Source of the DNA: Clostridia bacterium
Lineage (GTDB): Bacteria > Bacillota > Clostridia > Christensenellales > Borkfalkiaceae
Assembly: GCA_017507045.1 (NCBI GenBank)
Contig: JAFWBP010000007.1
Location: 62,001 to 126,000 of the forward strand
Length of the DNA: 64,000 nt
Reading direction: 5' to 3'
Shown here: positions 60,652-63,256 of the stretch, piece after piece
Layout of the letters: each line of letters starts with the position of its first letter
Numbering within the stretch: the stretch's first letter is position 1
Program-made: the position numbers and the translations under genes
Notes under the pieces: generated by a model
Told to the model about the DNA's origin: nothing
The model's database searches: none
The model's input: only the letters and a program-made list of their open reading frames with translations

Positions 60652-61707
60652 TTACCCCTCACACTTTTCTGGGAAATTCTCTATTAAACACTCCCATGCA
60701 CCCTCTGCGCGGGGGAAGTGATAAAATCCGTAGGCGCACTTTACTGCAAGCAGAGGAAGCCCATCTTTTTGCTCCGCTGCAATGCACTCGATTTCCTCCC
60801 ATTTCAAAAACGCACTCTCCGCACGGCTTGCTTCCTGCCAGAAGATGCCCTCTTTGTACACGCCGAATACGGCGCGGGCGCGCACGAACGATAAAATCCC
60901 ACGCACACCGAACAAAATTCCGAATACGCCGAGAAGCGCCCCTATGGCAACTTCCCAAAGAATTCCGAGAACAACCGCCAAAACAAGCAGTACCATGCCC
61001 ACGGAAAGCGTTATAAGCGCGCTCTTTCTCTTACTTTGATCGGGCAAAGAAAAGAGCTTTTTCGGCGTAAAGCGTACATCTTCCTTACTCGTGGGCATTT
61101 CGCCCAAAAGCTGTAAATTATGCCGCTCTATCACCCGATACAGGCGTTCCTTGCCGTCTGTTTGAATGAGTGCCGGCGGATCGTTTTCCTTTCCATCCTT
61201 TATGAGGTAGTGCGCCGGGACCTCAAACACAACGGACCACTCTCCTCTTTCGCGCGCCCTCTTACGCGTGCAAACGGAAAGAAAGCGGATTTGTCGGTAG
61301 GGGATATGGATGCGCTTGGCTGTTTCCTCTCCGTGGAATACGAGGCCATCTTTTTCAAACGTAGCAAACGTGCCTTCGCCTACGAAGAAGCTCTCTTCCC
61401 CATCGCATCGCTCTAAAAAATCATTCCTGCGTTTTTCGAGAGAAGGAGAAAGGTGCACAAGAAAAAAAGCGATCAACGCAAACGCAACGGCTCCAACGGC
61501 AAGCCCGCTCAGCACCGCCAATATAACTTCCTCGGGAGCATCTCCGAATTGATATATAAACGCAAGAATTACTACGCCGAATAAAGCCAATATTGCAAGA
61601 ACCGCAAAGGCAAAGGCGCCGGCAGTACAAACAGAGCACCGAAGCGCGAGCACTCTCCCCCGCTGCTCCTGCTCTGCTTTCGTTTTCGGAATACTGCTTT
61701 CGTACAT
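60652..61707 (-). CDS. Membrane protein with two helix pairs, unknown function
   Basis: A 351-residue protein starting MYESSIPKTKAEQEQRG, with ATG at 61707 and GGAGG upstream. Two hydrophobic hairpins lie near residues 22-75 and 230-275. A cytoplasmic-type PH-like or YcxB-like beta domain lies between them (FATFEKDGLVFHGEETAKRIHIPYRQI), and a similar one follows (GVYKEGIFW then WEEIECIAAE). The duplicated layout suggests an internal repeat. Function unknown. It follows the XRE regulator by 84 bp. Confidence 0.75.
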   Translation of the reverse strand: MYESSIPKTKAEQEQRGRVLALRCSVCTAGAFAFAVLAILALFGVVILAFIYQFGDAPEEVILAVLSGLAVGAVAFALIAFFLVHLSPSLEKRRNDFLERCDGEESFFVGEGTFATFEKDGLVFHGEETAKRIHIPYRQIRFLSVCTRKRARERGEWSVVFEVPAHYLIKDGKENDPPALIQTDGKERLYRVIERHNLQLLGEMPTSKEDVRFTPKKLFSLPDQSKRKSALITLSVGMVLLVLAVVLGILWEVAIGALLGVFGILFGVRGILSFVRARAVFGVYKEGIFWQEASRAESAFLKWEEIECIAAEQKDGLPLLAVKCAYGFYHFPRAEGAWECLIENFPEKCEG

Positions 61708-61791
61708 GGGTACCTCCAATTTCCCTTTCGCTATCACGATGAGGGAATTCCTCAATAACGCAAACCGCGCCCGTATAGGCGCGGAAAGAAT

Positions 61792-62406: not shown

Positions 62407-62412
62407 ATTCAC

Positions 62413-62441
62413 ATTATAACATTTTCTTGCAGATATGTCAA
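62413..62441 (-). promoter_or_regulatory. Perfect-consensus promoter of the XRE regulator, leaderless
   Basis: TTGACA (62436-62441), a 17-nt spacer ending TGT, and TATAAT (62413-62418), then six bases and the ATG. Confidence 0.85.
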
Positions 62442-62445
62442 CGGT

Positions 62446-62522
62446 TCTACTCCGAGTAGAGTGAGGATTTCACACTCTACCCGTCGAAATTTCACGAATA
62501 GAGCGGCGCGATAAAAGAGTAG
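62446..62522. promoter_or_regulatory. Operator cluster between the XRE gene and the small RNA
   Basis: TCTACTC-C-GAGTAGA (62446-62460) is a perfect palindrome. GTAGAGTG (62456-62463) pairs with CACTCTAC (62473-62480). A lone GAGTAG (62517-62522) touches the -35 box of the small RNA promoter. The half-site CTACTC/GAGTAG is therefore next to both divergent promoters, as expected for an autoregulator. Confidence 0.6.
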
Positions 62523-62523
62523 G

Positions 62524-62552
62524 TTGCAATTTCCTCAGCGCTATGCTACAAT
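62524..62552 (+). promoter_or_regulatory. Promoter of the candidate small RNA
   Basis: TTGCAA (62524-62529), a 17-nt spacer ending TGC, and TACAAT (62547-62552). The start is expected near 62559. Confidence 0.8.
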
Positions 62553-62558
62553 CAAGGG

Positions 62559-62688
62559 GAAGGCGGCAGTCCCAGCTACCCCTTCACCTCTCCAAAGTGA
62601 AGACCCGGCGCCCCGCCGGGTCTTCTTACTTGATCTTCTCACTGCAACCATTGTAAAAGGACGGGCAGATGCCCGTCCTCTTTTTTTT
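62559..62688 (+). ncRNA. Candidate small RNA of about 130 nt, no ORF
   Basis: An orphan unit with its own promoter and two strong hairpins. The 5' part folds as GGGG...CCCC around AGGCGGCAGUCCCAG. Next, CUUCAC/GUGAAG closes a C-rich loop CUCUCCAAA that is complementary to Shine-Dalgarno sequences. GAAGACCCGGCG/CGCCGGGUCUUC follows and competes for the same GAAG. The 3' end, AGGACGGGC/GCCCGUCCU plus C and eight U, is the terminator (62658-62688). No start codon with a ribosome binding site is present. It matches no RNA family I can recall (not 6S, SRP, tmRNA or a T-box). It may also terminate the convergent rubrerythrin gene on the other strand. Confidence 0.65.
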
Positions 62689-62737
62689 CGCAATTGTTTC
62701 GTGGGAACTCAGCCTCGAATGAGGAGATTAGTGGCGC

Positions 62738-63256
62738 TTAAAAGTATCTCTTCAAAAGCCCCTTGAACCCTGCGCCGTGGCGAGCTTCATCCTTTGCCAT
62801 TTCGTGCACGGTATCGTGGATCGCATCGTAACCGAGCTGCTTTGCGCGCTTTGCAAGGTTCAACTTGCCTTCGCATGCACCGGCTTCCGCAGCGGCGCGC
62901 ATCTCGAGGTTCTTTTTTGTAGAATCGGTAACCACCTCGCCCAAAAGCTCTGCAAACTTCGCTGCGTGCTCTGCCTCTTCGAATGCGTAGCGCTTGTATG
63001 CCTCGGCGATTTCAGGATAGCCTTCGCGCTCCGCCACTCTCGACATGGCAAGATACATCCCCACCTCCGTGCACTCTGCCGTGAAGTTGGCGCGAAGCCC
63101 TTCCATAACCTCTTCATCCTCTACCTTGCCATCACCCACGTGATGCTCGCAAGCAAATCCCTTCTCCTCGATGGGCTCAAACTTTTTCGCTCTGCAAACG
63201 GGGCAAACTTCAACATCATCCGCAACGATCTCGCCGCAAACAACACATCTTTTCAT
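62738..63256 (-). CDS. Reverse rubrerythrin (N-terminal rubredoxin domain)
   Basis: A 172-residue peroxide and oxygen detoxification protein. An N-terminal rubredoxin-like iron site ([18 protein letters not shown], residues 4-21) precedes the ferritin-like di-iron domain, with motifs [18 protein letters not shown] and [10 protein letters not shown]. This domain order, reversed relative to classical rubrerythrin, is that of clostridial revRbr. It reduces hydrogen peroxide, usually with NADH-linked partners. AAGGAG precedes the ATG. No PerR box is evident at the promoter. Confidence 0.93.

Follow-up and report, generated by a model that had tools for sequence, protein, structure and literature searches.

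The gap between an XRE-family regulator gene and a rubrerythrin gene in a Clostridia genome appears to be the control region of a membrane-anchored regulatory circuit, in which the XRE protein would act through a palindromic operator, O1, and helically phased half-site arrays on a small RNA (sRNA), a DegV gene, an HlyIII gene, and its own gene. We give this reading a probability of about 0.7. Its operator logic is strongly supported by the comparison of sequences, and direct binding of XRE to O1 and the arrays is likely; the signal, the sign of regulation, and the targets of the sRNA are what we infer. The locus lies in a 64-kb window (the whole stretch of 64,000 nucleotides analyzed) of a genome of 1.2 Mb in 17 contigs, with a completeness of 98.9%, whose nearest relatives with named records are uncultured Clostridia of the rabbit gut (host taken from the isolate names) and Candidatus Gallimonas. 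Re-reading of the coordinates gave a gap of 331 bp (62407–62737), as in a preliminary description that had proposed a compact module of an envelope-tethered repressor controlling itself and a small RNA.

The XRE Regulator

Residues 9–70 of XRE form an HTH_3 domain (PF01381, 53.5 bits against a Pfam cut-off of 23) that matches ImmR and P22 C2 in sequence. An AlphaFold2 model from 66 homologues (mean pLDDT 95) revealed four long helices C-terminal to the HTH, all of them hydrophobic enough for membrane spanning, with Kyte-Doolittle peaks over 19 residues of 2.3–2.7. Model and hydropathy agree with the four membrane segments described earlier, and four hydrophobic segments were found in 150 of 169 homologues. 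With an HTH and predicted transmembrane helices in a single chain, XRE has the make-up of a transmembrane one-component regulator. A fold search of the membrane domain against solved structures produced matches to the HTH alone.

A close orthologue, one per genome, is present in 36 of the 37 genomes of the genus. Of 396 genomes of the order, 123 have a homologue, and the regulator occurs there in ∼20 families, with DegV as a frequent partner. A membrane protein gene of unknown function (60652–61755, minus strand; 31–50% identity) adjoins XRE in nearly all genus loci, with a terminator-like hairpin (61765–61784) between the two genes.

Promoters, Operator, and Half-site Array

The gap had been described as holding two strong, divergent promoters, and both are present (Table 1). 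The adjective suits the XRE promoter, which matches the consensus at 12 of 12 positions, but not the sRNA promoter, which matches at 9 of 12 and has a TG ahead of the -10 element. The TATAAT of XRE is separated by 6 nt from the ATG (62406), so that its mRNA is predicted to be leaderless, starting at or beside the ATG; among 82 loci, 60 have this spacing of 6 nt and 16 have one of 7 nt (76 together).

Table 1. Features of the XRE–rubrerythrin locus (window coordinates)
Feature	Position	Strand	Remarks
XRE (HTH_3) regulator, 204 aa	61792–62406	-	HTH ∼9–70; predicted TM helices 80–112, 121–140, 144–170, 176–200
XRE promoter, TTGACA-17-TATAAT	62413–62441	-	-35 62441–62436; -10 62418–62413
Palindromic operator O1, TCTACTCCGAGTAGA	62446–62460	.	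Genus consensus TCTACTCACAGTAGA; TCTACTC-C-GAGTAGA
Inverted pair GTAGAGTG/CACTCTAC	62456–62480		Present as first described
Half-site TCTAC (inverted)	62476–62480	-	One 21-bp step from O1
Half-site ATAGA	62498–62502	+	O1 offset 52; additional to the sites first described
Half-site GTAGG (within GAGTAGG)	62519–62523	+	O1 offset 73; fused to sRNA -35
sRNA promoter, TTGCAA-17-TACAAT	62524–62552	+	O1 center to -35, 70–71 bp in 68/68 loci having the promoter
Small RNA	62559–62631	+	Predicted start and end, ∼73 nt; read-through to ∼62690 possible
C-rich hexaloop UCCCAG, hairpin 1	62570–62575	+	CC invariant, CAGC at least 90%; stem covaries
Unpaired conserved CUCUCC, anti-Shine-Dalgarno type	62588–62593	+	Invariant in 52 sequences picked partly by motif
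sRNA terminator hairpin	62599–62625	+	All 8 counted pairs changed on both sides
Bidirectional terminator, probably of rubrerythrin	62658–62690	.	Hairpin 62658–62679; similar in sRNA-less loci L008, L043, L102
Rubrerythrin gene	62738–63256	-	Convergent with sRNA; neighbor outside the regulon

The 15-bp palindrome, the inverted pair, and the GAGTAG at 62517–62522 were all found where the preliminary description had placed them. Half-sites follow O1 at offsets of 10, ∼31, 52, and 73, and the final GTAGG abuts the TTG of the sRNA -35 element. GAGTAG is rare in the window (four copies, where 14 would be expected), three of these copies lie inside the gap, and TCTACTNNNAGTAGA is found at only two places genome-wide, with no one-mismatch copies in the whole genome. 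Free variation of the half-sites among relatives, named beforehand as grounds for doubt, was not observed; O1 is near-invariant across ∼80 related loci, and in 80 of 84 distinct genus loci at least 12 of its 15 positions agree with the consensus.

The distance from the O1 center to the XRE -35 element takes only the values 11–12, 21–23, and 32–34 bp (64, 12, and 6 loci, respectively). These distances change by whole helical turns, which suggests that proteins bound at O1 need to be on a single face of the double helix relative to the promoters. Were the final half-site to form the right half of a 15-bp operator, that operator would have its center near -43. Positions around -43 are those bound by lambda CI and class II activators.

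Arrays Upstream of DegV and HlyIII Genes

The second copy of O1 in this genome precedes a gene of the DegV family on contig 16 (L112). The genome has four DegV genes, one of them with an array, and one FakA-type kinase domain (Dak2); arrays were found at the XRE/sRNA locus and this one DegV gene only. Three other promoter-like matches to TAGGKTG are without arrays, and a search for further arrays gave 26 two-mismatch O1 sites against 81 in the control. An array also precedes DegV in about a dozen relatives, and the second O1 sites of other genus genomes, G020 set apart, nearly all stand before DegV or HlyIII.

HlyIII is absent from this genome and was found in 49 of 61 genomes. When the HlyIII genes were taken as the starting point and their upstream regions read, O1 with an array was found upstream of 29 of 30, at a distance from the promoter of mostly 70–72, 91–92, or 112–113 bp, i.e. 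in 21-bp steps. In these arrays, a spacing of 20–21 bp was measured for 24 of the 25 half-site pairs, and the 29 arrays contain 29, 22, 25, 19, and 25 sites at offsets 10, 31, 51–52, 72–73, and 93–94, respectively, against 0.24 per offset elsewhere. Pfam scores for DegV and HlyIII are far above cut-off for the target proteins, and the operators shared by these lipid-related genes point to a putative fatty-acid/membrane-lipid regulon. The proposal of a self-contained module is thereby not borne out, the same arrays being found at two or more kinds of lipid/membrane gene elsewhere.

Three other observations concern O1 at its further sites. Upstream of HlyIII in L118, L121, L122, and L147, O1 has been extended into a larger inverted repeat that has a T-run and may double as the terminator of the neighboring gene. 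G020, which has lost the sRNA, carries about ten copies of O1 in a dispersed repeat (GATGCGCCCCGATCCATATCTACTCACAGTAGAATTCTATCATC; L126–L130, L133, and L135–L137), possibly a mobile or decoy element bearing the operator. In L140 and L146, O1 is present and a clear target is absent.

The arrays also bear on the sign of regulation. Activation of the targets is favored because the final half-site directly adjoins a poor -35 element, because the arrays, besides being long and phased, are confined to the upstream side, and because the number of 21-bp repeats varies while the phase stays fixed. Of the envelope-tethered repressor first proposed, the (predicted) membrane tether stands, and repression is not supported, as the last half-site runs into the -35 element at the sRNA, DegV, and HlyIII promoters alike, an activator-like position. 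That XRE is an ordinary repressor, silencing its own gene as well as the promoters of the sRNA, DegV, and HlyIII until membrane signals relieve the block, is an unlikely reading. Autorepression is common in XRE/CI-type proteins, O1 lies just upstream of the XRE -35 element, and a half-site fused to a target -35 element could occlude sigma; however, the arrays reach 70–113 bp upstream of the targets in fixed helical phase and stop directly upstream of an imperfect -35 element (TTGNNN), as activator sites typically do, and no half-sites were seen between the -10 element and the transcript start. At the XRE promoter, which is already perfect, self-activation is not obvious and repression is possible.

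An input of oxidative or general envelope stress in place of lipids was also considered, as rubrerythrin and mcsA/mcsB lie close by, with synteny of rubrerythrin and McsB in the genus. This seems very improbable: O1 occurs in this genome only at XRE/sRNA and one DegV gene, no rubrerythrin turned up within ∼2 kb of XRE in loci outside the genus, and in many relatives it is up to several kilobases away or unseen. Its varying distance to XRE rules out rubrerythrin as a part of the module.

A Conserved Small RNA

In most genus loci, the region past the divergent promoter encodes a hairpin with a UCCCAG loop, followed by ACUCUCC and a terminator. The helices covary among 52 sequences: two-sided changes occupy 119 cells, compared with 36 in shuffles, and the covariation score is 0.51, slid pairings reaching no more than 0.15. 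The UCCCAG loop and CUCUCC served to choose these sequences, so that the invariance of the motifs is partly built in and the covariation is not. The longer form of the RNA (62556–62690) has a fold z of -5.9. A conserved and covarying structure, its own promoter, and a terminator together mark the predicted transcript as a putative regulatory sRNA. A covariance model gave a single strong match per genome, which neighbors XRE in those genomes where the two could be located, and no match in several genomes of the genus; the covariance-model (R1) search did not find the RNA near XRE outside the genus. In Rfam, no family reached its threshold in the window or the gap (FsrA, 21 bits against 80). Four loci (L017, L019, L053, and L065) keep ACTCTCC and the terminator, with the C-rich hairpin loop altered or lost.

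The terminator-ended RNA of the preliminary description is supported as real, and its end at 62690 has been revised, being ∼60 nt too far. The conserved hairpin at 62599–62625, which stands earlier, probably serves as the terminator of the RNA itself, and the hairpin at 62658–62679 is read as that of rubrerythrin because similar hairpins follow rubrerythrin in loci without the RNA. Read-through to ∼62690 is possible, since the U-tract past 62625 is poor here. That the RNA is the leader of a downstream gene was ruled out by the sequence past the terminator, which differs among loci.

The C-rich motifs would pair at ribosome-binding sites, their complements being AUUGGAGAGU and CUGGGA. Alternatively, the RNA could be a by-product, and what matters for control of XRE would be its being transcribed, or else the divergent promoter as such. 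In favor of this are its absence from several genomes and its very variable 5′ part; no target was found, predicted duplexes with DegV leaders being no better than shuffles. We consider it rather improbable, as the covarying hairpin keeps its C-rich hexaloop and the unpaired ACUCUCC genus-wide, neither of which is needed for promoter activity.

Conservation Across the Order

O1 was found directly upstream of XRE in most homologues across the order, down to ∼35% identity. Among 45 loci with O1 outside the genus, DegV is divergent to XRE in 28 by BLAST and in five more by eye, one of the eye-read calls being confirmed by Pfam. An XRE|DegV-HlyIII order is found in L310 and L317 (two genomes of one family). 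The divergent gene context is independent of the motif and ties the regulator to lipid genes. A GDSL/SGNH hydrolase takes the place of DegV divergent to XRE in L267, L276, and L305 (one confirmed by Pfam), and this acyl hydrolase may be a further member of the regulon. In L304 and L309 the divergent gene encodes a membrane protein, with no Pfam match in L304, the one tested; it is possibly another type of target. The ancestral form looks like XRE divergent to degV(-hlyIII), with the sRNA holding the old place of DegV in the genus.

Three homologues, from two families only, have SRW in place of SKW in the HTH, and in these both half-sites of O1 are changed; among ∼39 homologues with SKW there is one clear case of such change. 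This link is suggestive of direct binding by XRE. In place of the probable binding by XRE, an unlinked regulator might bind O1 and the arrays, with XRE as one of its targets. This is highly unlikely, given the position of O1 directly upstream of most homologues, its alteration where the HTH has SRW, and the usual layout of a regulator gene next to its own operators.

Proposed Mechanism

In the membrane-anchored circuit that we favor, the cytoplasmic HTH would bind the palindrome O1, and an XRE oligomer would extend from it over the GTAGA half-sites, whose 21-bp spacing corresponds to two helical turns. Where the array ends beside the -35 element of a target, XRE would touch RNA polymerase and activate the promoter. 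The targets would be the ∼75-nt sRNA, one DegV/FakB and, in most relatives, HlyIII/TrhA (PAQR). From the other side of O1, XRE would regulate its own leaderless gene, positively or negatively. In the genus, the sRNA would have taken the divergent slot, and degV and hlyIII each have an array of their own.

The likely input is some feature of the membrane or of its lipids that the four-helix domain would sense, a role we infer from that domain and the targets. FakB proteins bind fatty acids for phospholipid synthesis. A streptococcal DegV is co-regulated by FabT with fatty-acid synthesis genes, and in S. pyogenes a DegV protein affects the amount of lipid (PMC10138225). TrhA of E. coli belongs to the FabR (unsaturated-fatty-acid) regulon and has effects on membrane energetics as well as on fatty-acid profiles (PMC9017321). 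The fuller proposal, that the XRE family senses lipids, polymerizes from O1 along the 21-bp half-sites, and couples FakB, TrhA, and the genus sRNA to the membrane, is tentative and has slightly less than an even chance of being correct.

Comparison with Known Systems

XRE resembles ToxR, TcpP, and CadC (PMC10269533) in that a DNA-binding domain is tethered to the membrane (here by prediction) with no kinase. Unlike these proteins, which have a winged helix, one membrane helix, and a periplasmic domain, it has an N-terminal HTH_3 and four membrane helices; the paper on transmembrane regulators (PMC10269533) makes no mention of XRE. With lambda CI and P22 C2 it shares the HTH_3 domain, a 15-bp palindrome between divergent promoters, and a site immediately ahead of a -35 element, and it differs from them in its membrane domain, its 21-bp half-site arrays, and a chromosomal lipid-gene regulon. 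The cI mRNA from PRM is leaderless, as is predicted for XRE. FabT, FabR, and FapR, in contrast to XRE, are soluble proteins of other families and, to our knowledge, none of them controls an sRNA from a shared array. The control of DegV/FakB by FabT (PMC10138225) and of trhA/yqfA by FabR (PMC9017321) is nonetheless of the same lipid-regulator type.

RsaE/RoxS, FsrA, and IsrR (PMC9410917, PMC8216469) are short RNAs with a C-rich loop, a second C-rich single strand, and a 3′ terminator. Their C-rich loops pair with ribosome-binding sites. The present sRNA has the same layout, a likeness that we treat as resemblance, and differs in being found only in the genus, falling below the Rfam thresholds, and being under different control. 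Searches of open-licence PMC papers gave no description of an XRE and DegV/FakB system or of DegV-HlyIII control by a membrane XRE, and the 21-bp arrays, the sRNA family, and the whole combination were not found there.

The locus bears on how Clostridia without a characterized FapR/FabT-type circuit match fatty-acid uptake to membrane upkeep and on the role of bacterial PAQR (TrhA) proteins. It also offers a natural case of a membrane-fixed DNA-binding protein that has to reach several loci via long phased arrays, and, with one regulator joining FakB, TrhA, and an sRNA through an unusually clear operator geometry, direct tests are possible. The components, namely a transmembrane regulator, an XRE protein, FakB, TrhA, and a C-rich sRNA, are all of kinds already known; the combination, the arrays, and the sRNA family had no counterpart in the papers searched, and together they look like a so-far undescribed membrane-care circuit in uncultured gut Clostridia.
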